Assembly (NCBI GenBank): GCA_013416795.1 | Contig: RQSC01000032.1 | Location: forward strand, 63,866-127,865 | Reading direction: 5' to 3' | From: Prasinococcaceae sp. CCMP 1430 | Taxonomy: Eukaryota; Prasinodermophyta; Palmophyllophyceae; Prasinococcales; Prasinococcaceae | Length of the DNA stretch: 64,000 nucleotides | Shown here: positions 4,999 to 60,915 of the stretch, one piece after another | Layout: every line of letters begins with the position of its first letter | Position numbering within the stretch: position 1 is the stretch's first letter | Program-made: the position numbers and the translations under genes | The notes under the pieces: model-generated | What the model was told of the DNA's origin: nothing | The model's database searches: none | What the model saw: only the letters and a program-made list of their open reading frames with translations

Positions 4999-5261
4999 CT
5001 CGGCGTGCGCGCCGCGGGCGCTCGCGCTAGCGCCTGAGCGCGTGCACGGCGCGGCCCAGCATGCAGCGCGCGCGCGGGCGCGCAGCAGCGCCTGCCCACG
5101 CGGGCGCGCCTCTCCACACGCGTGGCGCAGGAGCGCTCCTCGGGGGCGGGCGCGCGCCGGCCGGCGCCGCGCAGGCCGGCGCTGCAACGCACCTTGCCGC
5201 GTTGCTCCGGGCTTGCCACAGTCCCCACCCCACCCCGTCGCCGGCCATCTTGGCGACCGCG
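4999..5261. promoter_or_regulatory. Shared divergent promoter region, PIG-A / NAR1
   Basis: Only 263 bases separate the two divergent start codons, so this region must hold both 5' UTRs and core promoters. It is almost pure GC with CGCG runs; I see no TATA box. A shared, GC-rich divergent promoter is inferred from geometry only. Confidence 0.5.
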
Positions 5262-6833
5262 ATGGCATTTTCTTCCGCTGTGCGCATCGCCGACGTCAAC
5301 GACTTCATCGCGCCCTCGCAGGCATGCGTCGTGGGCATCAATGGTGGTAGCAAAGACGCCAAGGCGGCGTACGCGCTCGAGACAGCAGCTGTAGTGGGCG
5401 ACGCGGGCGCCGTGCAGATTCACGGCCGCGACGACGACCTGAGCATGGCGCCCACACCGTCGCCGGGCGGATTTGGGTTTGCGCAGGCGGGGGTGGATGG
5501 AGGCACGACTGCAGTCAAGGTGACGCTCAACGACTGCCTCGCGTGCAGCGGCTGCGTGACGAGCGCGGAGACGGTGCTCATGGAGGCACAGAGCGGCGAG
5601 CAGCTGCTCACGGCGCTAGACGCCGCGGCACAAGGGGCGGCGGGCGCCGCGCGGGTAGTGGTGTCGCTCGCGCCGCAGACTATCGCGAGCGTGGCAGCTG
5701 CTGCTGGCCTGAGCGTGGCCGTTACGCGGCGACGACTCTGTGCGGCGCTCAAGCGCGGCCTCGGCGCAGCGGCGGTGTACGACGTGGCGGAGGGCCGTGA
5801 CCTCGCCCTGGCGGAGGCGTGCCTGGAGTTCGTCCAGCGCTACCGTGGCCGGGCAGCAGGCGCGCCGCTGCCGCTGCTCGCATCGTCATGCCCGGGCTGG
5901 GTGTGCTACGCAGAGAAAACGGCCGGTAGCTACGTGCTGCCACACATCTCGACCGTGAAGAGCCCGCAGGCAGTTGCCGGGGCGCTCATCAAACGGGCAG
6001 CTTCGGGTGCAGGCGCGAGGGTATTGCACGCCGCAGTGATGCCATGCGCCGACAAGAAGCTGGAGGCCAGCCGTGACGAACTCACACTCGGCGGTGAGCC
6101 CGAGTGCGATCTGGTGCTTACTACAATCGAGCTGCAGGACATGCTGCGCACCCGAGGCATTGATATTGCTGCTGGAGGGGGCCCAGAGGATGACGTTGAT
6201 GCGCTCATCGAGCTGGTCGCTCCACGCGCCGCGGCGGACGGCGGTACGGAGACGATGGACATTGACGGTCTCGCGGGGGACGCGCAGCGGGCATCGGCAC
6301 CACTCGGAGGCTCGGGCGGGTGGGTGGAAACAGTCGCGCGCTTTGCATGCACGGAACTCTTTGGCACCCCGCCACCGCCAGGGCCGCTGCCGCTCGCGCC
6401 GCTGCGCAAGCGCTCAGGGGCTGACTTCCAAGTGTGCGAGCTGCCACCTCCACCAGGGGTCGACATGCCGCCGCTTCGATTCGCCACCGTGTACGGGTTC
6501 AAGTCCATCCAAGGTCTGCTGCGCAAATTGAAGACCAAGACCTGCGACTACGATTACGTGGAAGTGATGGCCTGCCCGGGTGGCTGCCTGAATGGCGGCG
6601 GCCAGTTGCGCCCGCCCGAGGGCGTCACGGCACGAGAGAGGCTCGCCGAGGTGGACAGCGCGTACCACTCGGCAGCAGAGCAGGACCAGATGCCATGGCG
6701 CGCGCCGCTGGTGCGCGCTACCCACGGCGCGCTCGGCGGCGATGGCGGCGCGTCCACAGCCGCGAGGGAGGCGTTGCGCACCAGCTACAAGCTCCGAGAG
6801 AAGCCAGCCGCGCTGCAGGCGACCAACTGGTGA
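5262..6833 (+). CDS. NAR1: NAR1/CIAO3-type cytosolic Fe-S assembly factor
   Basis: Iron-only-hydrogenase-like protein of the cytosolic iron-sulfur assembly (CIA) machinery. It passes Fe-S clusters to the CIA targeting complex and is not itself a hydrogenase. Single exon, 523 residues. The N-terminal cluster ligands are visible: Cys22, then Cys92, Cys95 and Cys98 in CLACSGC. The hydrogenase-like core shows the expected motifs [32 protein letters not shown] and the C-terminal [11 protein letters not shown]. The ATG at 5262 is chosen because family similarity begins at [14 protein letters not shown]; the open frame runs further upstream but into the PIG-A promoter. A Gly/Pro-rich linker (about residues 340-400) is longer than in yeast or human. 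It is convergent with the ARM/BTB gene, 89 bp apart. Confidence 0.95.
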
Positions 6834-18414: not shown

Positions 18415-18938
18415 NNNNNNNNNNNNNNNNNNNNNNNNNNNNNNNNNNNNNNNNNNNNNNNNNNNNNNNNNNNNNNNNNNNNNNNNNNNNNNNNNNNNNN
18501 NNNNNNNNNNNNNNNNNNNNNNNNNNNNNNNNNNNNNNNNNNNNNNNNNNNNNNNNNNNNNNNNNNNNNNNNNNNNNNNNNNNNNNNNNNNNNNNNNNNN
18601 NNNNNNNNNNNNNNNNNNNNNNNNNNNNNNNNNNNNNNNNNNNNNNNNNNNNNNNNNNNNNNNNNNNNNNNNNNNNNNNNNNNNNNNNNNNNNNNNNNNN
18701 NNNNNNNNNNNNNNNNNNNNNNNNNNNNNNNNNNNNNNNNNNNNNNNNNNNNNNNNNNNNNNNNNNNNNNNNNNNNNNNNNNNNNNNNNNNNNNNNNNNN
18801 NNNNNNNNNNNNNNNNNNNNNNNNNNNNNNNNNNNNNNNNNNNNNNNNNNNNNNNNNNNNNNNNNNNNNNNNNNNNNNNNNNNNNNNNNNNNNNNNNNNN
18901 NNNNNNNNNNNNNNNNNNNNNNNNNNNNNNNNNNNNNN
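18415..18938. other. Assembly gap (524 N)
   Basis: An unbroken run of N. It separates the 5' flank of the 2OG oxygenase gene from the 5' end of the CAF-1 gene and probably hides the CAF-1 start codon and promoter. The flanks are extremely GC-rich, which is a plausible reason for failed assembly. Confidence 0.99.
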
Positions 18939-19010
18939 GCGGCCGCCAAGGCGGTGGCGGTGGGGGGTGGCGATGCAGCGGGCGACGGCGGCGCGGAGAG
19001 CGCGGACGCG

Positions 19011-22000
19011 ATGGGCGGCGCGGAGGAGGCGACGCCCTCGCCTGCTCCAGGCTCTGGCGAACGCGAGGGCGGCGGCGCTCAAAGCGCGCCCGCCGACGCG
19101 TCCGGTGGCGGCGAGTCGCCCGACGCCACAGGGAAGCGCAAACGCGTCGTCAAGGCCAAGACCCAGGAGCAGAGCGACAAGCTCAACGCTCTCTGGGAGC
19201 TCACCGAGGATCCCACACAAGAGGAGAGGGAAGCGCTCGCGAAGGAGCTCGGCTTGGAGCGCAAGGTCGTCACCAAGTGGTTCAACTCGAAGCGCCTCCG
19301 GAAGAAGCGTAAGGGCGCGGGGGGCGATTGGGGCGCCACGCCCGCACCGCGCGCCGCCTCGGGCGCCTCGGGCGAAGAGGGCACGCCGACTGGCCAGGGA
19401 TTCGCGACTCCGGGCGCGGCCGGCTCCAGCCCGATGGGCGCGCTCGATACCAGGGAGCAGCGCGCGGCGGGCGCCGAGGCATGCGCGGCCGAAATTCTCG
19501 AGTTGGACGCAATGCTCGATTGCTCTGCCGATGCGGCCAAGGAGGCCGCCCAGGAAGCCGCAGCGGCAGCCGCCGCCATCGAGGGAGCGACCCTGCAATC
19601 GATTGCGGCGGGGGCCGCCGAGGGCTCGCCGCTGCCGCTCATGGGCCTCGCCACCATCGTGCTCAACGCGGCCAAGGCGTCTGGCCTCGAGGGCGTAGGG
19701 CCCATGCAGGTGATGCCCGCGATCGTCGGCGTGGCGGACCGGACTGCCGTGGGTGCTCAGCCAGCTGTCGGCACGGACGCGATGGCAGACACGTCGTCAT
19801 CGTGCGTGTGGCGCTGGCACTGCAAGGACCTCAGCCAGCTGTGCGACGCCAGCCGGAAAGCCCAGGCCGCGGGCGCCCGCATCGTGTGCGCGCAGGCGGC
19901 CGCGCGGCGCGCGGCGCTCGCCGAGATGGCGGAGGCGCTCGCGCTGGTCATGCAGGCCCAGGCGGAGAGCCAGGAGAGCCAGAGCCTGGAGGCCGCGGCT
20001 GCTGTGTACTCCGCGGAGGCGCGCCTGGCCAAGGCGCAGAACATGCTCAAGGGCACGAAGACCGCCGCGAGCATCGCCGCGAAGACCGAGCAGGTCATGC
20101 AGTCCGCGGCACAGAAGCAGGCGAGGCTAGAGGAGCTCGAGGCTGAGAAGGCCCGCAAGGCCGCGGAACGCGCCGCCAAGAAGGCCGAGCTCGACGCAGA
20201 GAGGGCAGCCAAAAAGGCCGCGCTGGATGCGGAGCGGGAGGCCAAGCGGGCCAAGGAGGAAGCGGAGAAGGCCAAGCGCGAAGAGGAGCGGCTTCGCAAG
20301 CTGAAGGAGCGCGAGGAGAAAGAGGCCGAGAGGCGCGCGCTCCGCGAGGCCAAGGAAGCGGAAAAGGCTGCCGCCGACCAGGCCAAGCGCGCGGAGGAGG
20401 ATAGACTGGCCAAGGCCAAGGCCAAGCAGCGCAACCTGATGTCGAGCTTCTTCAAGAAGCCCGCCGCAGCCGCTGTGGGCAAGGATTCTACCCCTGAGGG
20501 GCGCGGGCCTGCCGGCCCGGCCGGGGTGGCGAGCCCAAGCCCCAAAGGCGAGCGGCCGCTCTTCGTGAAGCCAAACGAGTACATGTACACGACCTTCAGG
20601 CCGCCACCGCTCGCGTCTGAGGCAGACGCCTCGACCCCCGTGGTGCTGCCAATCCGAAACGGCAGGCGCACGCCTGCCACCCAGTGGTACAAGCGCCGCG
20701 CCGCGCCTGGGTGGCAGAAGATCGTGGCACCCGCGCGCGAGCTGCTGCTGTACAGCGCCACAGGCTCGGGTCTGGAGGAGACGCGCCAGGAGCGTCGCCG
20801 CCTGGATTCTGCGCTTCCCAAGGACGCAAGTGCGCCGGCGCCGCACGCCGACGGCAACGAGGACGATGACTGCATGATGATGGATGCTGCCCAGCCCGCC
20901 GGTGCCGGCATGGAGTCGCACAGGCAAGCCGAGGGCCCGCGCGCTCCCGGCGTGTTCAAATACCTAAACTTTCATATGGTGCTTGACGAGGATGGCGAGT
21001 GGGTCAACACCAATCGGCCGGCCTACCACGGAAACAGGGTGCAGTGGGAGACACATGGCGCCAGACTGAGCTCGACCGCTGGCGGCGGGCCGAGCGCCCG
21101 CAACCCTTTCAGAAAGCACGATGAGGTTGACTACGAGGACTACTCGGACTTCGAATGGGAGGACGAGGGGGAGGGTGAAGAGATCGGGAGCGATAATGAG
21201 ATGGATGCGGACCCGGCCGACAACTCCCCAGCTGGCAGCGAGGTTGACTCTTTCATCGTCGGAGACGACTGCCTGTCTGAAGGCGCTGTTGATGACGATG
21301 AAGACATGCACGACTGCGCCGAGTCACAGGAAACCGTCGCGGGGCCAGGCGACGTACCAGCGGACGCGCTGCGGCTGCTGCAGCGCTACAACAGCGCGCT
21401 TGCGCGTGCAAAGGCAAACGGCCGTGCGGTGGTGGTGCAGTCTGGCACCGAAAATGCTCACTTCCTGTCGGCGTTCGCGCCGCGCATGATGAGCCCGGAC
21501 GTGTCAATCGCCACTGGGGTGGACCAGGAGCGGGAGGTCGAGGAGGCCGAGGCCGTTGCTGAGGCTGCAAAGGCGGCCGCGAAGGCCGCTGAGGCAGCGG
21601 TGAAGGCTGCGGCCGCGCCGCCCAAAGCTCCCAAGGAGGCTGCCAAGTTCAGCGCGGAACAGCTTGCCATGCTCAAGGCATTCGTCCAGGAGCAGCGCGA
21701 CGCCGGCAATGTGACCATGACCAAGAAGAAGTACGAGCAGGAATTCGCCGCGATGAGTGGCCTGCCCAAGGTGACCGTGCAGAGGAAGCTCATGGAGGTA
21801 TTGGAAAATCGCCCCGGCGAGAAAGGCTTCTTCTTCAAGGAGTCGATCGTCATCGGCGACGAGGGCCTCGCCCCTGCCGCGGGCAGCGAAGATGGTTCGG
21901 CCGCTGCCGCAGCGACGCCGGACGCCACGCCGGACGCCACGCCGAAGGCCACGCCGAGTCCCGCTGCGAAGCTCGCCGCGAAGGGGACGCCAGGGCAGGG

Positions 22001-23222
22001 GGCGACGCCTGAGCGGACCCCGCCATCTGGCCACCGGTCCATCGCCGCCATGTTCGCTCAGGCCGCGAGTCCCAAGCCCAGCCCCAAGACTCCAGCCTCT
22101 GCCGTAGCCCCGGTACGATTCGACCTCCTGCAGACCAGCGCCCCGGAGGACGCCAACGGCAGCTCTGTTGTGGACTTCGACGAGGTCATCTCACGGGCCG
22201 ATGAGGCAGCAAGGACGAGCGACGAACCGCACGTTGATGAGCACTTTGGGGTCTTCGCCGCGGAAACGCTCGGCGGCGAGGCCGGCGCGATCAAGGCCCT
22301 GCGCGCGCGCACCGTGCGCAGCATGGTAGGGCGCATGGGTGATCCGGAGTGCCCCACCAACCTACGCGCGTCGCTCTGCCAGGCCCTCTACTGCGTCACT
22401 GTGTGCCTCGGGGACGTCTCATCCAAGACACACGGGACGGCCGACGATGTGAAGGGCCAGGCGCAGGACGCGGATGCCGCCATCACCGCCTCGGATCTCG
22501 TCGACACTCCCGGGCTCTTTGATGCCATGCGCACCTGCGCCGAGGCGAACGACGTGCTATCCGCACGCAGGTGCCTGATGCTGATCGGTGCTCTCGCGCG
22601 CAGGAGCCCAGGGAAGGCTGCCACCCGGGTGCTGATGGCTCTGGCGGAGCCCCACTGGCTTCGTGCCTTGACCGCCGCTGCCGAAAAGCACAACGACGGT
22701 GACTTTCCAACCGCGAACAAGGGCGCCTACGTAGCTAGCGCGCTGCTCACCGACGAGGATGCTGCTGGCGCAGCCGTCACGTCGGGTGGCAGCCGCTGCC
22801 TACTTGATGCGCTCATTGCCGCGCTCTGCAGCGTCGGCACCGCCGCTGCTGCCAAGGCTGAATCGGCGGCCGCTCGAAAGAAGAATGTGCCCAAGAGCAC
22901 GCGCACCGTGGCGAAGCTCGCGATGAATGCGCTCTGTGGCGCGATGGTGCACGTGGGAATCCCGGACGTCAGGCCCGCAGTGGAGTGCGCTCGAAGGCTC
23001 CTTTCCGCACATGGCCTGCTTGGGGCCCCGGCGGCCGAGCAGGCCCTCACATTCGCCAACGAGCTCGCCGCTGCAGACGCGGAGGCGCGATTGGCTGCTG
23101 ACACAGATGGGTTGCTGGCCGCGCTGCGCGCTCTCGAGGCAGATGAGGCACTTGGCGCGCGCGCGACGCACGCGGCGCGCGCGCTTGAGAAGGCCGCGGT
23201 GCCTGCAGCGGCGTGCACGTGA
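19011..23222 (+). CDS. CAF-1 large subunit with N-terminal homeodomain-like segment
   Basis: Large subunit (p150/FAS1 type) of chromatin assembly factor 1, the histone H3-H4 chaperone working behind replication forks. 1403 residues from the ATG at 19011, but the frame is open back to the gap edge (18939), so the start may be missing. In order: a homeodomain-like segment at about 42-101 (KRKRVV ... LGLERKVVTKWFNSKRLRKK); a KER coiled coil at about 370-475; a PIP-type box QRNLMSSFF at about 474; a block LFVKPNEYMYTTFRPPP; the acidic ED region at about 650-770 (DEVDYEDYSDFEWEDE ... DSFIVGDDCLSEG); a winged-helix-like domain at about 880-947 (MTKKKYEQEFAAMSGLPKVT); and a C-terminal helical-repeat region. 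KER, PIP and ED together make the call firm; the homeodomain and long C-terminus are unusual. Confidence 0.88.
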   Translation: MGGAEEATPSPAPGSGEREGGGAQSAPADASGGGESPDATGKRKRVVKAKTQEQSDKLNALWELTEDPTQEEREALAKELGLERKVVTKWFNSKRLRKKRKGAGGDWGATPAPRAASGASGEEGTPTGQGFATPGAAGSSPMGALDTREQRAAGAEACAAEILELDAMLDCSADAAKEAAQEAAAAAAAIEGATLQSIAAGAAEGSPLPLMGLATIVLNAAKASGLEGVGPMQVMPAIVGVADRTAVGAQPAVGTDAMADTSSSCVWRWHCKDLSQLCDASRKAQAAGARIVCAQAAARRAALAEMAEALALVMQAQAESQESQSLEAAAAVYSAEARLAKAQNMLKGTKTAASIAAKTEQVMQSAAQKQARLEELEAEKARKAAERAAKKAELDAERAAKKAALDAEREAKRAKEEAEKAKREEERLRKLKEREEKEAERRALREAKEAEKAAADQAKRAEEDRLAKAKAKQRNLMSSFFKKPAAAAVGKDSTPEGRGPAGPAGVASPSPKGERPLFVKPNEYMYTTFRPPPLASEADASTPVVLPIRNGRRTPATQWYKRRAAPGWQKIVAPARELLLYSATGSGLEETRQERRRLDSALPKDASAPAPHADGNEDDDCMMMDAAQPAGAGMESHRQAEGPRAPGVFKYLNFHMVLDEDGEWVNTNRPAYHGNRVQWETHGARLSSTAGGGPSARNPFRKHDEVDYEDYSDFEWEDEGEGEEIGSDNEMDADPADNSPAGSEVDSFIVGDDCLSEGAVDDDEDMHDCAESQETVAGPGDVPADALRLLQRYNSALARAKANGRAVVVQSGTENAHFLSAFAPRMMSPDVSIATGVDQEREVEEAEAVAEAAKAAAKAAEAAVKAAAAPPKAPKEAAKFSAEQLAMLKAFVQEQRDAGNVTMTKKKYEQEFAAMSGLPKVTVQRKLMEVLENRPGEKGFFFKESIVIGDEGLAPAAGSEDGSAAAAATPDATPDATPKATPSPAAKLAAKGTPGQGATPERTPPSGHRSIAAMFAQAASPKPSPKTPASAVAPVRFDLLQTSAPEDANGSSVVDFDEVISRADEAARTSDEPHVDEHFGVFAAETLGGEAGAIKALRARTVRSMVGRMGDPECPTNLRASLCQALYCVTVCLGDVSSKTHGTADDVKGQAQDADAAITASDLVDTPGLFDAMRTCAEANDVLSARRCLMLIGALARRSPGKAATRVLMALAEPHWLRALTAAAEKHNDGDFPTANKGAYVASALLTDEDAAGAAVTSGGSRCLLDALIAALCSVGTAAAAKAESAAARKKNVPKSTRTVAKLAMNALCGAMVHVGIPDVRPAVECARRLLSAHGLLGAPAAEQALTFANELAAADAEARLAADTDGLLAALRALEADEALGARATHAARALEKAAVPAAACT

Positions 23223-23462: not shown

Positions 23463-24973
23463 TTAGACGCCCTCCTGTCCGAACTCGGCGGTGAACCTGT
23501 CATGGACCTCTAGGTCGTCCTTGGACACTGTCGGGCGCGCGCGCTCGAGCACCGTTTCGAAGTCCGCACGGCTGATGAGTGGGACCTGGACGCGATCAGC
23601 AAACCCCTTGGCGGCCAAGTCCATCAGAGTGGCCGAAAAGGCACCCTTGGCCCGCGGCGCGCAAGGGGCGTAGTACACACCCGGCCCAGCTGGACCGTCG
23701 GCCTGCACCTGCCTAAAGTGCGTGGCCTCTTGCGTCTTGCGGACAGGCTGCATGAGCACGTCCTTCACCGCCACGGACACGTCGCTGCCGGAGAAGCCTT
23801 CAGTCATGTCTCCAAGGTCACGGAAGTCGTCTTCCGTGAGCGAGCTCGGAGTGTCGCCGAGGTGCACCTTGAACATGTGCGCGCGCGCGTGCGGGTCCGG
23901 CAGCGGGATGTAGATGCGCTTGTCGAAGCGCCTGCGCAGCGCCTGGTCGAGGTTGTATGGCAGGTTGGTCGCCGCTAGCACCAACACATTGTCCGTGCCC
24001 CCTCCTACGCCCTGCATCTGCACCATGAACTCAGTTTTGATTCGCCGCGCCGCCTCAGACTCCCCCTCTCCACGCGCGGAGCACAGTGAGTCGATCTCGT
24101 CGATGAAGATAATCGAGGGCGCCTTCTCACGCGCCATCTCAAAGAGCTGCGCCACGAGCTTTTCACTCTCACCCATCCACTTCGACACCAGGTCCGATGA
24201 GCTGACGCTGAAGAAGGTCGAGTCGGCCTCGGTGGCCACGGCTTTGGCCAAGTAGGACTTGCCCGTGCCCGGTGGGCCGTAGAGGAGGAAGCCCTTCCAC
24301 GGCTTGCGCTTGCCCGTGAAGAACTGCGGGAATTTCACGGGCAGGATGACCGCCTCCTTGAGCGCGTCCTTTGCCGCGTCCAGGCCGGCCACGTCATCCC
24401 ACTTGATGTTGGGCTTCTCGCTCACGATGGCACCAGACATGGCCTCGCGGAGCTTTTCCGTCTCCTTGTCAGCGCCCTTCGCGTTGCCCCCACCTCCTCC
24501 AGCCCCCCCATTTGCGCCGGCGCCGCGCGACAGCTGCGCGTTCGCTCCGCCACCAGCGCTGTCGCCCCCGGCCGCCGCTGGTTGTCTGCCGTCGAGCACC
24601 CCCTTGAGAGCTTCGGCCCTGTCAAGGTACTCCTTGAACTTCTCGGTGAGCGTCTTCTTGATGGCGGGATTCTTCTCGTACTTGAGCGCGGTCTTGAAGT
24701 ACTCGAGTGCGGTCACGTACAGCTGCGCGGGAGCGGCGGGGGGCGCGGCACGCGCGGGGCAAAAGCGCGCGTGAAACGCGCGCGTCAGCACGGAGGCGCG
24801 CATGTCGCAAGGAGTCCGCACGATGGTGACTCGACGATCGCGCGTCACGCCGCATCTGGAGGCCCCGCGCGACAGCACACCTTGTACGCCGACTCGTAGT
24901 AGCCCGCGGTGTCCTCAGCGACGGCCTTCTTCACATACTCGATGGCCGTCTCCTTGAAGTTGCTGAAGGACAT
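23463..24973 (-). CDS. VPS4: VPS4, ESCRT-III disassembly AAA ATPase
   Basis: AAA ATPase that disassembles ESCRT-III in multivesicular-body sorting and membrane scission. Exon 1 is 24973-24881 ([20 protein letters not shown]) and exon 2 is 24722-23463, joined phase 0 through a GTGTGC...GCAG intron; 450 residues. The N-terminal MIT domain continues across the junction ([22 protein letters not shown]). A Gly/Ala linker follows, then [19 protein letters not shown], Walker [16 protein letters not shown], Walker [11 protein letters not shown], and the second region of homology [20 protein letters not shown]. The C-terminal helix with [20 protein letters not shown] is typical of VPS4 and separates it from katanin and spastin. 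The linker is longer than in yeast. Confidence 0.96.
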
Positions 24974-48209: not shown

Positions 48210-48603
48210 CGCGGAGCCTTTGCCAGGATTGGCACCGGGCGACGACGCCACTCGTGGCGGTGCCGCCGCCGCCGCCTCTGACGCGCGAGTGTGCCGAGCT
48301 CACCGTGGCACCGCCCACCCTCGCTCCACCTGTCTCCGCCTCCCGCGGCCGCGCCCCGGCACCAGGTGACACGAGGACCTCCTTCTCCCTCCCGTCCACC
48401 GCCGCGGTCCGCCTTGCCACCACGCGGCGGGCGCCGCACGCGCATGGTGTGGCGAGTGACATCAGACACCTGGCTGTCACCTGCCGTAGAACGAGCAGTT
48501 TCGTTTTGCGTACCGCTGTCGCCCGGGGGTGCTGCCACACCGCGAGCGCAGCGCGCTGGTGGCGACGCAGGTGGGCCGGTGTGGGTATGTGTCGGGGGTG
48601 CGA
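48210..48603. other. Divergent promoter, WBP2-like / DMFase-like
   Basis: 394 bases between divergent start codons, GC-rich, no recognisable element. Confidence 0.4.
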
Positions 48604-50919
48604 ATGGCCAGGCGCGTGCTAGGGCGAGTGATGCGGGCTAGGGGGCGAGCGGCGCTGGTGGCGCTCGCGACGGTGCTGGCATGCGCTGCGCCACATGCGC
48701 TGGTGGCGCGAGGCGTCCCGGCGTCAGTTACGGAGAACGCGCTGCCTGGTGCGCCGCGCACCGAGTGGGACGTGAACGCCGCGGGCGACCCGTCGCTGCA
48801 GGGCTTCGCGCGTGCGCAGTCATACGCGCAGGGTGAGGTCGCGCGCATTGCCGCACGGGCGCTCGGTGACTTCGAGTGGCGCGCCGATGTGTACCGTCTC
48901 GGGTACTACTCGGGGGAGGGCGCGCGCCACGTCCTCACGCTGCGGCCCACTGCTGCGCAGGCAGAGGCATCACGCGCGCAGCCTGAATGCGTGCTCGTGG
49001 AACCCGCCACGCTGCTCTTCGACTGTGCCAATTGGGCGACCTCGCTTGAGTTCGTCGTGCCGAACGATGCTACATCGGGTTTGTACGTTGCGCGCCTCGT
49101 GCGGACTGGCAGCGGTGACGACAACGGTGGCTGGCGGGCGGACGACGTCGGGCTCGACACATCCGCCACGCCGCAATTCGCCAAGGCGGGCGCCGCGGCA
49201 GGGACAGATCCCCGACCGGCGAACAGCACGCATTCGTACGGGGCGGCCGGCCATGGCGACCTTCGCGACAAGCTCCGCGAGCCGCGCGCATCGCACGTGT
49301 GGTTCGTGGTCAGAGCAGCGGACGCCGACCCGGATTCAGCCGGACGTGGCACGGAGCGCGCTGCTGAGCGCAAGCGCAATGGCGTGCTTGTGCAGACGGC
49401 CGATACGACCTGGCAAGCGTACAATCGCTGGGGGGGATCGGGCCTCTACGGCGGAGTCGGCGTGGGCCACGGCCCGAAGGACTACGGTGGTGGCGGCCTC
49501 GACCCTGACGCACCCGCGCGACGCTCATTCAAAGTCTCGTACAATAGGCCGCTCGTCACGCGCGACTATCGCTCCATCAATATGCCGCTCGGCGCTGAGC
49601 TGCCCGGCATCATGTGGCTCGAGAGAAATGGCTATGATGTCGAGTACGTGTCAGCCGGAGATGTCGACCGACTGGGAGCGGCTTTGCTGGGGCAGTATGC
49701 GGTCTTTCTCTCTCTGGGCCACGACGAGTACAGCACGCAGCGTCAGTTCGAGGCGCTGCAGCGAGCTCGCGCGCACAACGCCACCAGTCTCTTTTTCTGG
49801 TCCGCAAATGAGTATTTCTGGCGCGTGCGCTGGGAGGCCGACCCCGCTGGCGAGGCCAGGCGCGTCATGGTGTGCTACAAGGATACGCAGGCCGACGTCA
49901 AGCTCGACCCGCTGCCGGGCGAGTGGACGGGCACGTTCCGCGACGCACGTCCGCAGAATCCGCTGGGTAGCCAGCCCGAGAATATCTTATCGGGCACTAT
50001 CTTCACGGTAAACGCATGGCGCAACGACGCGCTGGAGGTGCCCAGCGAGATGGCGGCGCTGCGCTTCTGGCGACACTCGGATATGTTTGAGAGGGCTCGC
50101 GGCAGTGGCGCTGCCTATTTACCTCGAGGCGTGCTCGGGCATGAATGGGACGAGGACGTGTGCAACGGCGCTCGTCCCGCGTGTATCGCTCACCTCAGTC
50201 GCACCCAAGTGGACGGCGTCATGTACGTCCAGGACCATGGTTCTGTGTATGACACCGGCAGTGCAACCCACCGAATGGTGGCGTTCAGGCATCCGACGTC
50301 GGGCGCTCTGACATGGGGCACTGGTACCGTGCAGTGGAGCTGGGGGCTTTCGCCGCTACACGACGGCGGCGCCGAGGGGGGGGTGCCGCCCGAGAGGGCC
50401 AATCCGTTCAACACGCGCGTGCGTCGAGATGTTGTGGGCACCGACGTGTCCGCGCAGCAGCTGAGTGTCAACATGTTTGTGGACGCGGGCGTGACCGCGC
50501 ACACGCTGCAGCGCGAACTCACGCCGCCCGCGCGCTCCACGGACACAAGCCCACCGCGCTCGCGCGTTTCCTCGCAGAGCCACGATGCCATTTACGTGTT
50601 GGCGCGGGACGTCGGTGGTGGGCGCGTGGCTGGTGTCGAGTTGAGCTTCGACGGTGGTAGCTCGTGGCACTTCGCAGAAAGAGCGGCACACGCGTACGCA
50701 GGCGAGACTGGCGGTGGCGAAGGTGCTGCTCATTCGCAGAGAGCGGCTGCGTCTGCAGCCTCGGGGGCCGACGAGCTCTTCGTGCTGCGGCGTCGTGTGG
50801 GCACCCGTTGGCACCCTGGCGCGCCGCTGCTCGTGCGCGCCGTCGACGACTCGCTGAACTGCGAGACCGCGCACGCTGGCAGCGATGAGATGCGGGTTCG
50901 GGACGCCTCTGAGCTCTAG
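48604..50919 (+). CDS. Secreted N,N-dimethylformamidase-like protein
   Basis: Resembles the large (beta) subunit C-terminal domain family of bacterial N,N-dimethylformamidases, metal-dependent amidohydrolases; actual substrate unknown. 771 residues, one exon from ATG 48604, starting with a signal peptide (MARRVLGRVM ... AALVALATVLACAAPHALVA). The N-terminal part is beta-rich (FEWRADVYRLGYYSGEGARH). Family signatures: TTWQAYNRWGGSGLYGG, FKVSYNRPLV, ELPGIMWLERNGYDVEYVSA, then AVFLSLGHDEYSTQRQFEAL, LFFWSANEYFWRVRW, VMVCYKDTQAD and GEWTGTFRD. The C-terminal part is a beta-sandwich-like domain (VAGVELSFDGGSSWHFAERA), reminiscent of sulfite-oxidase-type Ig-like domains. Such genes are mainly bacterial, so ancient transfer is possible; base usage matches its neighbours. 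Confidence 0.82.
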   Translation: MARRVLGRVMRARGRAALVALATVLACAAPHALVARGVPASVTENALPGAPRTEWDVNAAGDPSLQGFARAQSYAQGEVARIAARALGDFEWRADVYRLGYYSGEGARHVLTLRPTAAQAEASRAQPECVLVEPATLLFDCANWATSLEFVVPNDATSGLYVARLVRTGSGDDNGGWRADDVGLDTSATPQFAKAGAAAGTDPRPANSTHSYGAAGHGDLRDKLREPRASHVWFVVRAADADPDSAGRGTERAAERKRNGVLVQTADTTWQAYNRWGGSGLYGGVGVGHGPKDYGGGGLDPDAPARRSFKVSYNRPLVTRDYRSINMPLGAELPGIMWLERNGYDVEYVSAGDVDRLGAALLGQYAVFLSLGHDEYSTQRQFEALQRARAHNATSLFFWSANEYFWRVRWEADPAGEARRVMVCYKDTQADVKLDPLPGEWTGTFRDARPQNPLGSQPENILSGTIFTVNAWRNDALEVPSEMAALRFWRHSDMFERARGSGAAYLPRGVLGHEWDEDVCNGARPACIAHLSRTQVDGVMYVQDHGSVYDTGSATHRMVAFRHPTSGALTWGTGTVQWSWGLSPLHDGGAEGGVPPERANPFNTRVRRDVVGTDVSAQQLSVNMFVDAGVTAHTLQRELTPPARSTDTSPPRSRVSSQSHDAIYVLARDVGGGRVAGVELSFDGGSSWHFAERAAHAYAGETGGGEGAAHSQRAAASAASGADELFVLRRRVGTRWHPGAPLLVRAVDDSLNCETAHAGSDEMRVRDASEL

Positions 50920-54728: not shown

Positions 54729-55314
54729 GGCGGGCGCGGGCGGGCGCGTGGTGAGGACTGACGGCGTCTCCACGCATTCTACGCGAGCCTCTCTCCGAGT
54801 GCGCGCCCTTCCAATTTATGCGTTTTTGGCGCAGGCACGAGCTTGGCGCAGGCTTTTCCGGCGCGGCCAAAAAAAAAAAAAAAAAGGAATGACATGACAG
54901 GGGGCGCTGCAGGGGCCGCCAGGGGGAGCGACCGGCGACCGTCCCGCCGGCGAGTGCCGCTGCCAGACCGCGGGCGGCAGGGAGGGCGTTCCCTTCCGAG
55001 GCGCAGAGGTGCTCTCAGACGCCGTGCCGTCCGGCTCCCGCGCACGGGGCGGTGCTGGGCACGACGCCGGGCCACTGGACCCCGCGAGCGCAGTTGCGCG
55101 TCCGCGGGCGGCCGCACGCTAGTATCGCTGGCGTTTCGTGCGCGCGGGCGCGTTCTGGGGGCGAACAGCCACATTAGCACGTGAGGGCTGGGGCCTGTGC
55201 AGGTCCGACTGCAAGAGCAACAGCCACGCGGCAGACGCCCGCGCTGGCCGGTGGGTCGACGACGGGGGTGGAGGACACCGCGCGTGTTTCGGCGCGTTTG
55301 GAGAAGCCGGAGGC
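54729..55314. other. Divergent region with poly-A, no gene seen
   Basis: 586 bases between the divergent GGH and WD40 genes. It contains an A run at about 54869-54884 and otherwise GC-rich sequence. The WD40 frame stays open leftwards to 55138, so its 5' exon or UTR may extend here. Confidence 0.45.
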
Positions 55315-58300
55315 ATGCTGCCCAGGCTGTTTCGCGTGAACTCACCCGAGTTTGAGCCAGCCCCTGAGCCCGGCGATCCGGACAATGAGTCCAATCAAAG
55401 TGGCGCCAACGATGAGGAGGTCTCCCAGCAAGCGCCCGGAGGGGACGCTCGGGATGTGGAACAGCGAAGAACTCCCCGGGTCACTGCTGCGGCCATGCTG
55501 CCGAGGCTGTTCCGCGTAGATTCCCCTGAATTCACACCCAGGCCTGAGCCCGGTGACCCGGACTACGAGACTGCTGACGGAGCCGGCGGCTCAGACGTCA
55601 CACAGCAGCCCCCCGGTGATGAGCAGTGGGAGCATGTCTTCTTCCCCGGAGCCACCTCAGCCGCTGGCGACGGCAGTCCCACCTTACCCTCCGCGCCTGT
55701 TGCGGCCGCTGCGGGCACCGCAACATCTCTGCAAGAGCAACCGCCGATTGATGCCTTCTTCGACGATCACGCATTCGGCGGCAAGGCATTCGCTGCTGAT
55801 GGGGAGGCGACGGGTCACTCCGAGTTTGAAAGTGATCCGCTGCAGAGCCTCTCGATAGGCCGTTCTGAGCAGGAGGAGGCGCACGCGACGCAACAGCACA
55901 CCACGACGCCGTCGGTGGATACGTGGTCAAGCAGCGACAATGACGACACCCCGGCGCGTGCCGCCGAGCGACTTGAGGTGACCGAGGTCGACCACTCGTC
56001 GGCGTCGGAGGACATTAGCAAAGATCGACGCCTGCACTTCGAAGAGGTGGGAGTGTTGCGCGTTTCTCTGCCGGACGCGAATGCCGACGATGGCTCTTAC
56101 GCTGGCAGCGTTGACGACGCCGGCGGGTGCGAATGGGAGGTTCAAGCGGTCGCCTTCCATCCGTTCGAAGAGTCGATTGCCGTTTCCATTGTTGCCTGTG
56201 CCCCGAGCTCCAGCGTGTGCGCTCGCGACGCTGGCTCGCACACGCGGGCGAGCGTGCGGCTCGTGGATGTGCCCACTGGGGCGACCATGGCGCTGGGGAG
56301 AGTGCCCGAGAGCTTTAATGCAGCTCTAACGGCGCTTGACTTTGCGCCCGGTCCACCGCTGACGCTGGTGGGTGTAGCTGCGGGTGACAACCTGCCAGAT
56401 TCCCTCGGCGGGTCGCAAAGATGCCATGCGAGTCACGCCGTTCTTGTATGGCGGGCGGCGCCAGGTGACGGGCTGCGCCTGCTCTGCACAGTTTCACTGG
56501 ATGACATGCATACTCTGCTGACGCCGACGGTCGGCCAGCTTCAGAACAAGAGCCTGCTTAGCGGGAGCACGCGCGCACCCGTACGGCCTCCGACGGCGCT
56601 CCTGTCTGTCGCGAAGAAGTCAACGTGTAGCGCGGGCTCCTCGTGCCGTGCCTTCGTCGCATTCGCTGGCGAGTCTGCGCAGCCCGCGGCAGTGCGAGTC
56701 AACGTGCCCCTGCCCTCAAAACCGCAGCGGGGCCGCATCGACCGCGCCCCGGACGCTTTCATGCTCAGCGAGCTGCCAGCGGCGGAACGCAGCGCGACCA
56801 ACTCATGCACGCTTGGGACGGGAGGGAGCAGGGAAGAAGAAGCCGCGTGGCAGAGTGGAAGAGAAAGCAGAAGCTCGGCAACCTCTGCCTCTTCGACCGC
56901 CGCCTCAACGTCACTGAGCACCGTGGCTGGCCTCGGCACCGCAGCTGTGTCTATGGTTGGATCAGCAGCGAGGTCAGTTCAGTCGGTGTCGGCGATGTCA
57001 GCTGCCGTCGGCGGACAGATGGCTGCGGCATCCGTCGCAAGCAAATCGCCACCTGTCGTTTCCATGGACATGCACCCCTCACAGCCTATGCTTATGGTGG
57101 GAAAGGCCAACGGCACGCTACTCTTCTATCGCGTCTCCTGCGACCATCCTGCCAGAAGTGATACGCGCGACAGTGTGTCCCCGCTCGCGCAAATCGACAC
57201 TGGAGCGCACGCTCTGCGGTGGGCATCGTTCTGCGCCAGCAGTACACGGAGCGGCAATGCGGGCTCGGGTGGCTGCGCGCTGGTCATGTGCGAAGGGCGA
57301 GCTCTGTGTGTGGATGTTATGGACGCTCTCCAGCGCGTCGCAAACAGGCTGCACCACGGCGCGGGGCCCGTTATGCCCTTCACGCCAAGCGTCGTGGCGT
57401 CCACCATGCTACCGAGCGACTCGCATGTGCATGGCCAAGCAAGAAAGGGAAGCACTGGACGCCCCCTACCGAGGCAGCTCGTCCATGGCGGGCTATGCTA
57501 CTCGCCTGCGCTTGAAAGCAAAGGGTCGAATGGCGTCCTTCCTGCTGAAACGCTCTTCGTATGGGACGGCGCCGGGCGTATGCGCGCCCTGGTGCTAATG
57601 GCATCGACAACACCCTCACACGGCACCGCGGCGCGCGCTGGTACGGCAGGTGCTCAACTGCACACGACTGCCAGCACGCAGATACCAGTCCAGTCGCTTT
57701 CGGCGTCGGCTCCACGCTGCCTCGCGTTGCATCCAGACAAGCCCTTGTTGTGCACACCTATTCCCGGGCTGCCCGACGAAGGAGCGGGGAACGGCTGCGT
57801 CCTCAAGTTCTACTCGGCAAGCGCCTACTTTGATTCCGTCAGCGCGAGCGCCACGGACGCTGCTACGCCGACCGCCGCGACCACGACGCAGTGGCTCGGG
57901 GCCAGCAGAAGCGGTGAGTCTGCGATGAGCCAGATGCACTCCGCACATCGAGGAGTCGGAGCAGAAACACAGTCCTCTTCAAAAAGGATGCCGTTCATCA
58001 GAGTTGGATCATCCGCGCGCGCTCGTGCCGTCGCCGCGTGTGCAGCGGCGCACGCCCCCTCGCTGTACGCACTTCTCCCGGTGGCGACAGACACGGGCGT
58101 AGCTCCCTATGGAGACACGGGCGGGGCAGAACCGACCGCCAGCCCCCCGGATAGCCGTGCCGCGACGTCACCACTGGAGCAGGAGGGTGACTGGGCTAGT
58201 GTGTCCGTCCCTGCCACAGTTCCTTTCGTCGACGGCGACAAAATCTGGTGTCTGAATCTAGCGGACACTCACAGTAGCGCGAGGAGCGGCGACGGCGCGT

Positions 58301-60915
58301 TCGAGCTCGTCGGCACACTCCCTGCGGGGTTCGAGGCAACGGCTCGCTTGATTTTCAGCCGACCCACTGGGGTGATGGTGGCGTTCGGAGAGAACAGCTC
58401 GAGCGGCGACGCGGCGGGAGCGTATGTCATCCGCCACTCGGCGAGTGCAGGCTCCGAGAGCGTCGTAGCGGTCACGCCTTTGGCAGCGAGCAGCGCGGCT
58501 ACGTGGACTCCCGAGTACGTCAGTGGTGGGAGACATGGCGCCTTTTTTGGTGAAGACAAGGGCCATCTCGTGTTGCTATGCAAGGGAGACGAACATGGTC
58601 GTGTCCCGACAGGGCCCGTCGACACCGCGGAGCTAAAGGAGGATGGGGTCACAGGACTATGGCACTATGTCGTTGGTGAGCGAGGGCTAGAGCCTTTTGA
58701 GGATGCATTCGCGTCAGCACTGCTGCCCTTACCTGCAACAGCTATGTTTGCCATGCCACACTTGGGCTCGCGTGCTGCACTTCTTGTCTGCTTCAGCGAC
58801 CGCGCACAACCACGCCGCCGCGTGCTAGCGCTCGTGAGTGATATTGCCTCGGTGCCGTCGGACGATTCGCTCATCACGAGCGGGTCGTTCGAATTGGGTT
58901 TGTCAGAGAGGGTACTCGACGCCGTCTCAACGACCTTCCCCGTAGACGACCTGGTGGCGCGTACCGAAGATGTGGTGGCCGTGGTCGTTCTCACCGATTC
59001 GCGTGTCATCGTGCTTCTGGCATCATCGACGGAGCAAGGCGGCCCGGCGCTGCGACTCGTCACGTCGACCGGGGCGCACGCGTCCAGCACTTGCTCTGCC
59101 CACGCGGCGTCGAGTGCGCGCTATACCTCAATGGTGCTCGGTGGCCCGTGCGTATTCTTGCTCGATAGCCTGGGCATGTTATCATGGATGACATTCAGTG
59201 GTCGTACGGGCCCGATGAGAGCCCTGCCGGTCCCTACCGGATTGGGCGTGTCATACGACGTCGGCGGGCTGTCCCTGGCTGCCGTGCTGCCCGACAGGGT
59301 CGTCTACACGGCATCCGGGGACAACGGCGGTCAAGTGCGCGCGTACGAGATCGCCGTTGGGCTGTTGGAGCCACTGGCGATAGGATTCCTTGACCTTGCG
59401 AGCGTCGCCAGGCACGCGGCCCCGCACGGAATCAGCAGCAAACTCCCGGACGACTTCACTATCACCTGGCTGCGCTGCGCGCTGGGTGTGTACAGCGCAG
59501 CAAACGCAACACCCAGGCTCGTGCGCGCTCTTCTGCGGGAAGGGTACGCCACACTCGCATCGGCTGTCGCCGATGTCGCGCACGTGGCCGGGCGGGTCTC
59601 AGCCGCGCAGACGCGTGCGGTGAAGCTTCACACTCTCGACGACGCGCAGCTGTCTCAGTGCGCGGCAGATTTGAGGCGCGAATTCGAGCGCAATCCGGCG
59701 TTCCCGGGTCTATTGGCCGAACAAGCCACGCTCGACGGGACTGCGTGCGGACAGACGAAGTCTCTCCGGATGCAGATACGCGACCTGGCCGCCGCGAGCA
59801 GACGCGCGGGGGACCTCACGACCTCCGCGATAGCTGCTGACATGCTTGGCAACCCGTGGGGAGCATTGCAGTCGCTGCTTGCGACGCGCTCCGTGGACGG
59901 GGTAGTTCGCATGGCTGCGAACGCGGCCGCTGCTGCTTACGAGCTAAAGCAGCGGCGGGTCCTGCGGCAGCGTGGCTCTGTGCCCGCCGCGGGTCGCTAC
60001 GACCTCTTGACGCTCGGATGCGTGCACGCCACGTGCATGGCATGGCTAAGGATGCAAGAGACAGCCATGAGCGACGAGACCACCACAGCTGCCACAGCCG
60101 TCGCTGGTGCCTCTGCCACTTTCAAGAGAGGTAGCCAATCATCGCCCTCAGGACGACCGCGTGCGCTGCTCCTCGACGACAAGGGCCTCATCTCGTCCGA
60201 GTCTGGCGACGGGACTGGTCAGCTGACGCTGGCACCTGACAAAGCACAGGTTACGATAGCAGATTGCGTGGATCTCGTGAGTGCCCGAGCGGAGCCTGAC
60301 GTGACCATGCGCGCCGACGCAGACGGCGCGAGGACGCCACACATGCGGACGCGAGCGACCCTGTGGGACGCTTGCCAGCCACTGTCTGCGCAAGACAATG
60401 CATCGGCGAGAGGGGCGCAGGATCGCGCCCAGGAAGGCTCGGTCGCCAGCTTCAGCTGGCCATCACGCTCGCCGTCCCGTCCCAGCGGAATCGGCTCGAC
60501 TGCATCTGGTGCACCTTCCCCTCACGCCACCGCCGGTACCCTCGACCTCGAGGATCTGATGGCCTTCTCGCCCCGCGGGGAGGACGACTCGACAGAGGTC
60601 AGCTCCGCGGTGCCTGGCCAGGACCTCTTCGGAGCAGATCCGTTTGGAGTGGGTGCAAGCATACCTGGTCCTGGCGCACGCGCGGTGCAAGACTCAGACT
60701 CTGACGACGATCCGTTCACTTTCGGCGCGAAGAAGAGCAAGTTCCGCGTGCACATCCGTGGCAAGGACGAGGCGATCGCACCAGCGGCCGCCGTGCCAAA
60801 GTTGGATATCAGACTTGGCGGCGGGGAGGTGGTGGGGACCGGCGAACCCTCCGGGAAGCAGTTCGCGTTCCGCATGTCCTCCAAGCAGCGCGGCTCGGAC
60901 TCCGACTCCGACTGA
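55315..60915 (+). CDS. Giant WD40/solenoid protein, possible TSET-type subunit
   Basis: 1866 residues in one uninterrupted exon of 5.6 kb from ATG 55315. The N-terminus has the block MLPRLFRV-SPEF-P-PEPGDPD twice, 60 residues apart. Then come propeller-like strands: CEWEVQAVAFHPFEESIAVS, VSMDMHPSQPMLMVGKANGT (then LLFYRV), APRCLALHPDKPLLCTPIPG, and more to about residue 1400. A helical solenoid-like region follows (LRCALGVYSAANATPRLVRA, DLAAASRRAGDLTTSAIAAD), then an acidic tail ending in DDDPFTFGAKKSKFRVHIRG. Two propellers plus solenoid recall coat-type proteins; resemblance to plant TWD40-2 of the TPLATE/TSET complex is a guess from architecture. Ser/Thr/Ala-rich linkers interrupt the blades. 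Confidence 0.7.
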   Translation: MLPRLFRVNSPEFEPAPEPGDPDNESNQSGANDEEVSQQAPGGDARDVEQRRTPRVTAAAMLPRLFRVDSPEFTPRPEPGDPDYETADGAGGSDVTQQPPGDEQWEHVFFPGATSAAGDGSPTLPSAPVAAAAGTATSLQEQPPIDAFFDDHAFGGKAFAADGEATGHSEFESDPLQSLSIGRSEQEEAHATQQHTTTPSVDTWSSSDNDDTPARAAERLEVTEVDHSSASEDISKDRRLHFEEVGVLRVSLPDANADDGSYAGSVDDAGGCEWEVQAVAFHPFEESIAVSIVACAPSSSVCARDAGSHTRASVRLVDVPTGATMALGRVPESFNAALTALDFAPGPPLTLVGVAAGDNLPDSLGGSQRCHASHAVLVWRAAPGDGLRLLCTVSLDDMHTLLTPTVGQLQNKSLLSGSTRAPVRPPTALLSVAKKSTCSAGSSCRAFVAFAGESAQPAAVRVNVPLPSKPQRGRIDRAPDAFMLSELPAAERSATNSCTLGTGGSREEEAAWQSGRESRSSATSASSTAASTSLSTVAGLGTAAVSMVGSAARSVQSVSAMSAAVGGQMAAASVASKSPPVVSMDMHPSQPMLMVGKANGTLLFYRVSCDHPARSDTRDSVSPLAQIDTGAHALRWASFCASSTRSGNAGSGGCALVMCEGRALCVDVMDALQRVANRLHHGAGPVMPFTPSVVASTMLPSDSHVHGQARKGSTGRPLPRQLVHGGLCYSPALESKGSNGVLPAETLFVWDGAGRMRALVLMASTTPSHGTAARAGTAGAQLHTTASTQIPVQSLSASAPRCLALHPDKPLLCTPIPGLPDEGAGNGCVLKFYSASAYFDSVSASATDAATPTAATTTQWLGASRSGESAMSQMHSAHRGVGAETQSSSKRMPFIRVGSSARARAVAACAAAHAPSLYALLPVATDTGVAPYGDTGGAEPTASPPDSRAATSPLEQEGDWASVSVPATVPFVDGDKIWCLNLADTHSSARSGDGAFELVGTLPAGFEATARLIFSRPTGVMVAFGENSSSGDAAGAYVIRHSASAGSESVVAVTPLAASSAATWTPEYVSGGRHGAFFGEDKGHLVLLCKGDEHGRVPTGPVDTAELKEDGVTGLWHYVVGERGLEPFEDAFASALLPLPATAMFAMPHLGSRAALLVCFSDRAQPRRRVLALVSDIASVPSDDSLITSGSFELGLSERVLDAVSTTFPVDDLVARTEDVVAVVVLTDSRVIVLLASSTEQGGPALRLVTSTGAHASSTCSAHAASSARYTSMVLGGPCVFLLDSLGMLSWMTFSGRTGPMRALPVPTGLGVSYDVGGLSLAAVLPDRVVYTASGDNGGQVRAYEIAVGLLEPLAIGFLDLASVARHAAPHGISSKLPDDFTITWLRCALGVYSAANATPRLVRALLREGYATLASAVADVAHVAGRVSAAQTRAVKLHTLDDAQLSQCAADLRREFERNPAFPGLLAEQATLDGTACGQTKSLRMQIRDLAAASRRAGDLTTSAIAADMLGNPWGALQSLLATRSVDGVVRMAANAAAAAYELKQRRVLRQRGSVPAAGRYDLLTLGCVHATCMAWLRMQETAMSDETTTAATAVAGASATFKRGSQSSPSGRPRALLLDDKGLISSESGDGTGQLTLAPDKAQVTIADCVDLVSARAEPDVTMRADADGARTPHMRTRATLWDACQPLSAQDNASARGAQDRAQEGSVASFSWPSRSPSRPSGIGSTASGAPSPHATAGTLDLEDLMAFSPRGEDDSTEVSSAVPGQDLFGADPFGVGASIPGPGARAVQDSDSDDDPFTFGAKKSKFRVHIRGKDEAIAPAAAVPKLDIRLGGGEVVGTGEPSGKQFAFRMSSKQRGSDSDSD

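Follow-up and report, generated by a model that had tools for sequence, protein, structure and literature searches.

A CAF-1 large subunit with a predicted N-terminal homeodomain fold lacking Asn51 in Prasinococcaceae sp. CCMP 1430

The window analyzed here, a 64,000-nucleotide stretch of one Prasinococcaceae sp. CCMP 1430 contig, carries on its forward strand an uninterrupted frame (positions 19011-23222; 1403 amino acids counted from the ATG at 19011) for a large subunit of CAF-1, the chaperone that packages freshly replicated DNA with histones and acts at replication forks with no sequence preference. Behind an N-terminal homeodomain, the encoded protein has a KER region, a PIP-like motif, a CAF1A/ED region and a winged-helix-like segment, which is the domain order of CAF-1 p150. 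Convergent with this gene is a reverse-strand gene (23463-24842) for a VPS4-type AAA ATPase with AAA, Vps4_C and MIT domains. Directly upstream of the CAF-1 gene lies a run of N (18415-18938), either an assembly gap or withheld sequence, and the CAF-1 frame stays open in the 5' direction through this run as far as 18228. Since the 24 codons between the gap and the ATG (18939-19010) score as coding in the CAF-1 frame (0.41), the true start codon or 5' end of the gene may lie within the gap.

Homeodomains are usually a hallmark of transcription factors, and their presence on a CAF-1 subunit could reflect a gene-model artefact in which a different gene, lying upstream, contributes the homeodomain and merely happens to be in frame with CAF-1. 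The gap just upstream would fit such an artefact, as would the tendency of GC-rich DNA to yield long open frames by chance, of which an antisense frame overlapping the CAF-1 gene (19757-20971) is an example. Because of this tendency, codons were scored with a model whose training set consisted of nine other long coding frames from the window (eight with Pfam matches). From the gap edge to the 420-bp interval that spans the stop codon, the CAF-1 frame was the best of the six in every such interval (0.05-0.35 per codon), and the coding signal was lost, as expected, in the interval from 23142, which lies mostly beyond the stop. The linker between the homeodomain and KER behaved in the same way, with the CAF-1 frame best in every 150-bp interval tested, and third-position GC was 0.85-0.87 in both the homeodomain and the linker. 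The single unbroken frame claimed in the initial annotation therefore holds, with no in-frame stop over 1403 codons and a continuous coding score, and given this unbroken signal in one frame a two-gene origin of the apparent fusion appears very improbable.

A mostly helical, Ala-rich linker (residues 104-359; 19320-20087), delineated by its coding score and by low-confidence modelled helices, leads from the homeodomain into the KER region, a long charged helix (residues 360-475; 20088-20435). The composition of residues 356-475 (31% Lys plus Arg, 25% Asp plus Glu) is supportive of KER as annotated, and the CAF1A_acidic/KER profile (PF11600) aligned with residues 370-493 just short of its cut-off (E = 9.7e-6; 25.9 bits against 26.4). 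KER is closed by RNLMSSFF (20430-20453; RNLMSSFFKKP when extended), which by inspection is a non-canonical PIP-like motif. The PIP-type box that had been proposed is thus present in its FF and in its place at the end of KER, but it lacks the first Gln of the canonical motif and begins instead with a basic residue. Human p150 likewise has a basic first residue in KAEITRFF (KAEITRFFQKP) at the end of its KER, where yeast has QSRIGNFF (PMC9570017).

The CAF1A dimerization/ED region (residues 667-735; 21009-21215) matched CAF1A_dimeriz (PF12253) well above its cut-off (E = 1e-7; 32.5 bits against 25), and an acidic tract and DSFIVGDDCLSEG come next, in agreement with the acidic ED block of the earlier reading. 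Against the PDB, the ED block gave a weak alignment to human CHAF1A (E about 8), and the ED segment searched alone matched no chain. A winged-helix-like domain (about residues 878-950; 21642-21860) follows ED as it does in CAF-1, and in a model of residues 874-1403 it shows the H-E-H-H-E-E order with pLDDT mostly about 65-71; residues 882-947 carry this winged-helix order at moderate confidence. By topology and position the segment is a candidate winged helix; a comparison with solved CAF-1 WHDs gave no sequence match. In p150, DNA binding by the winged helix shows no sequence specificity (PMC8874411). A search of NCBIfam returned no match.

Across the small genome (24.5 Mb assembled in 145 contigs), PF12253 matches only the gene at 19011-23222, and it is on this one profile that the single-copy status of the CAF-1 large subunit rests. 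Elsewhere in the genome are a p60/FAS2-like frame (L016), a HIRA-like frame (L015) and an MSI1-like frame (L012), candidates named from domain matches and from reading of their translations. The p60 candidate matched the propeller Pfam model, and the p60 C-terminal Pfam model gave none. The protein thus shares with human p150 (CHAF1A), Arabidopsis FAS1 and yeast Cac1 both the order of KER, PIP-like FF, ED and winged-helix-like segments and the company of candidate p60 and MSI1 partners. Given that p60- and MSI1-like frames are present, the homeodomain-bearing large subunit could take its place in an ordinary CAF-1 complex. The LHC proteins of the genome are of the green type (chlorophyll a/b), an assignment that rests on single-domain LHCII matches ranked after 9vfj, whose top-ranking chains run to about 1050 residues and may have inflated summed scores. 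Green-type LHC proteins point to a probable green alga and not to a haptophyte, and the "other haptophytes" that had been suggested as a comparison group are therefore probably the wrong one.

The homeodomain itself (residues 43-102; 19137-19316) is flanked by the basic stretches KRKR and KRLRKKRK. Residues 49-100 matched the Homeodomain profile (PF00046) above its cut-off in the whole protein (E = 2e-8) and more strongly when the segment was searched alone (E = 3e-11). Prediction from the single sequence gave three helices (residues 52-64, 70-80 and 84-103) with pLDDT of about 90-93, and the best Foldseek matches to the model were homeodomains, many of them at about 1 Å over about 50 residues, with modest E-values; most of the searched model is disordered or of low confidence. 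Engrailed, LMX1A and BARHL2 superposed with an rmsd of about 1 Å. Both profile searches and structure prediction, which the initial annotation had put forward as checks, thus came out in its favor, with the Homeodomain and CAF1A_dimeriz profiles above their cut-offs, CAF1A_acidic just below and a three-helix fold predicted. The segment shares this fold with non-TALE, 60-residue homeodomains and keeps Leu16, the aromatic Trp20, Leu34, Leu40, Trp48, Phe49 and Arg53, whereas its partner is a histone chaperone rather than the domains of a transcription factor. Lys and Arg make up 30% of residues 41-103, and helix 3 and both ends are strongly basic.

In homeodomains at large, Asn51 is a near-invariant adenine contact and Arg5 reads the minor groove. 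The present homeodomain differs from the superfamily in having Ser at position 51 (codon TCG, 19287-19289), Val in place of Arg at position 5 and Lys rather than the usual hydrophobic residue at position 47; position 50 is Asn. Ungapped alignments with PF00046 and with helix 3 of ATBF1 and DUX4 fix the register as W48 F49 N50 S51 K52 R53. The segment had been described as ending in WF-N-x-R, and it does align with homeodomain helix 3, but that motif was one residue out: its Asn is residue 50, and the protein reads WFNSKR where the homeodomain signature WFxNxR requires Asn51. Asn51 was reported to be invariant in a set of 346 homeodomains (PMC2211742), and in Bicoid N51A served as a homeodomain mutant for altering Bicoid dynamics (PMC10911119). 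All three other homeodomains found in this genome keep Asn51. Among homeodomain frames elsewhere in the genome, one (L001; G000:C3:302976-303146, reverse strand) has the homeodomain followed by a leucine-zipper-like stretch, an HD-ZIP-like arrangement, and another (L003; G000:C51:60540-60674, forward strand) comes after a run of N of more than 1 kb and has partner domains that are unreadable.

These substitutions bear directly on what the homeodomain might do. One of the two roles offered in the initial annotation was a sequence-guided histone chaperone, in which the homeodomain would read sequence and steer CAF-1 to defined loci (origins, rDNA or promoters, for instance). The high-confidence fold, the Lys/Arg-rich helix 3 and the retention of Arg53 and Trp48-Phe49 speak for such a reader; the residues now at positions 5, 47, 50 and 51 argue against it, however, and general replication-coupled deposition requires no sequence preference, so that we consider site guidance quite unlikely. 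A fuller version, with the homeodomain directing replication-coupled nucleosome assembly to chosen sequences and an ARM-like C-terminal solenoid recruiting partners, strikes us as decidedly improbable. Some sequence specificity may come from Asn50, Lys47 or a partner, and helix 3 is still very basic.

Given the loss of Asn51 and Arg5, the homeodomain could instead have given up DNA binding for protein-protein contact or autoregulation, with ED, histones or other chromatin proteins as possible partners. Vertebrate HOPX is a precedent for a homeodomain that does not bind DNA (PMC2211742). In human p150 the basic winged helix is masked by ED (PMC8874411), which might likewise restrain a basic homeodomain. 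The strongly basic helix 3 and ends speak against such a module, since they favor contact with nucleic acid, and we regard a HOPX-like role as unlikely. With the base-reading residue Asn51 missing, the homeodomain is more likely a general holder of DNA than a picker of sites, and from its sequence we infer a module with general DNA affinity or protein contact rather than a sequence reader. The second role initially suggested, a DNA-binding replacement for another targeting module, lies closer to the evidence than sequence guidance does. The overall interpretation offered in the initial annotation thus finds support in part, for the fusion and for the homeodomain fold but not for sequence guidance.

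At the other end of the protein, about 340 C-terminal residues have no Pfam match, consistent with the claim that this part is unlike textbook CAF-1. A low-confidence model folds about residues 1056-1394 (22176-23192) into an ARM/HEAT-like helical solenoid, which among solved structures comes closest in shape to ARM proteins (VIA Z of about 15-16 to the ARM region of importin-alpha). Helical repeats often give matches of this sort and the model is a weak one, so we do not take this likeness as homology to ARM proteins. The modelled solenoid is probably a second lineage-specific extension, used for protein contacts.

To our knowledge, Asn51 is absent from homeodomains of the DDT class. The plant DDT and SAWADEE classes resemble the present case in that a homeodomain is joined to a chromatin-regulation protein (PMC4901127). 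The partners differ, since the DDT domain binds ISWI remodellers and SAWADEE probes the H3 tail (PMC4901127), whereas here the homeodomain is followed by CAF-1 domains. Accounts of human p150 and yeast Cac1 (PMC9570017, PMC8874411) describe neither an N-terminal homeodomain nor an ARM-like C-terminal region of about 340 residues. Yeast Cac1 itself lacks both terminal parts of human p150 (PMC8874411), and variable ends therefore appear usual for the CAF-1 large subunit. We found no description of a homeodomain within CAF-1 in the open-access literature. Searches of viral and prokaryotic contig collections with the whole protein and with a CAF-1 ED peptide, a consensus-like query composed from general knowledge, returned no relatives, a result that says nothing about other algae.

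Taken together, we consider it reasonably probable that this gene encodes a CAF-1 large subunit (p150/FAS1/Cac1) whose N-terminal homeodomain-fold module serves general DNA or chromatin contact. What the parts bind and what each extension does would most likely be as follows. The PIP-like motif that closes KER would dock on PCNA and the ED region would bind H3-H4. KER and the winged helix would hold DNA without sequence preference during H3-H4 deposition behind the fork, in which p60 and MSI1 would take part. To these activities the homeodomain would add a third, largely sequence-independent contact with DNA (or with protein), as well as a nuclear-import signal. In position it would occupy the place of the lineage-specific N-terminal targeting region of human p150, and the C-terminal ARM-like solenoid would make protein contacts.

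With a homeodomain in its CAF-1 large subunit, this lineage would be evidence that a transcription-factor fold can be joined to a core replication chaperone, and the lost Asn51 offers a direct test of whether the homeodomain fold can be reused as a general grip on DNA. Of the 11 plant homeodomain classes listed in one review, none is described with CAF-1 domains (PMC4901127). Should transcripts confirm the fusion and orthologues share it, it would therefore constitute a new homeodomain class and an evolutionary marker for chromatin replication in green algae.

Three further forward-strand frames were observed in the window. The first (5031-6833) encodes 600 amino acids with an iron-only hydrogenase large-subunit C-terminal domain (PF02906, E = 2.5e-57) and could be either an algal HydA or a NARF/Nar1-type protein. 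A second (48490-50919; 809 amino acids) has an N,N-dimethylformamidase beta-subunit-like C-terminal domain (PF20254, E = 1e-79). The enzyme behind this profile name is known from bacteria, and horizontal transfer is a possible origin of the frame. The third, at 55123-60915, is an open frame of 1930 codons.
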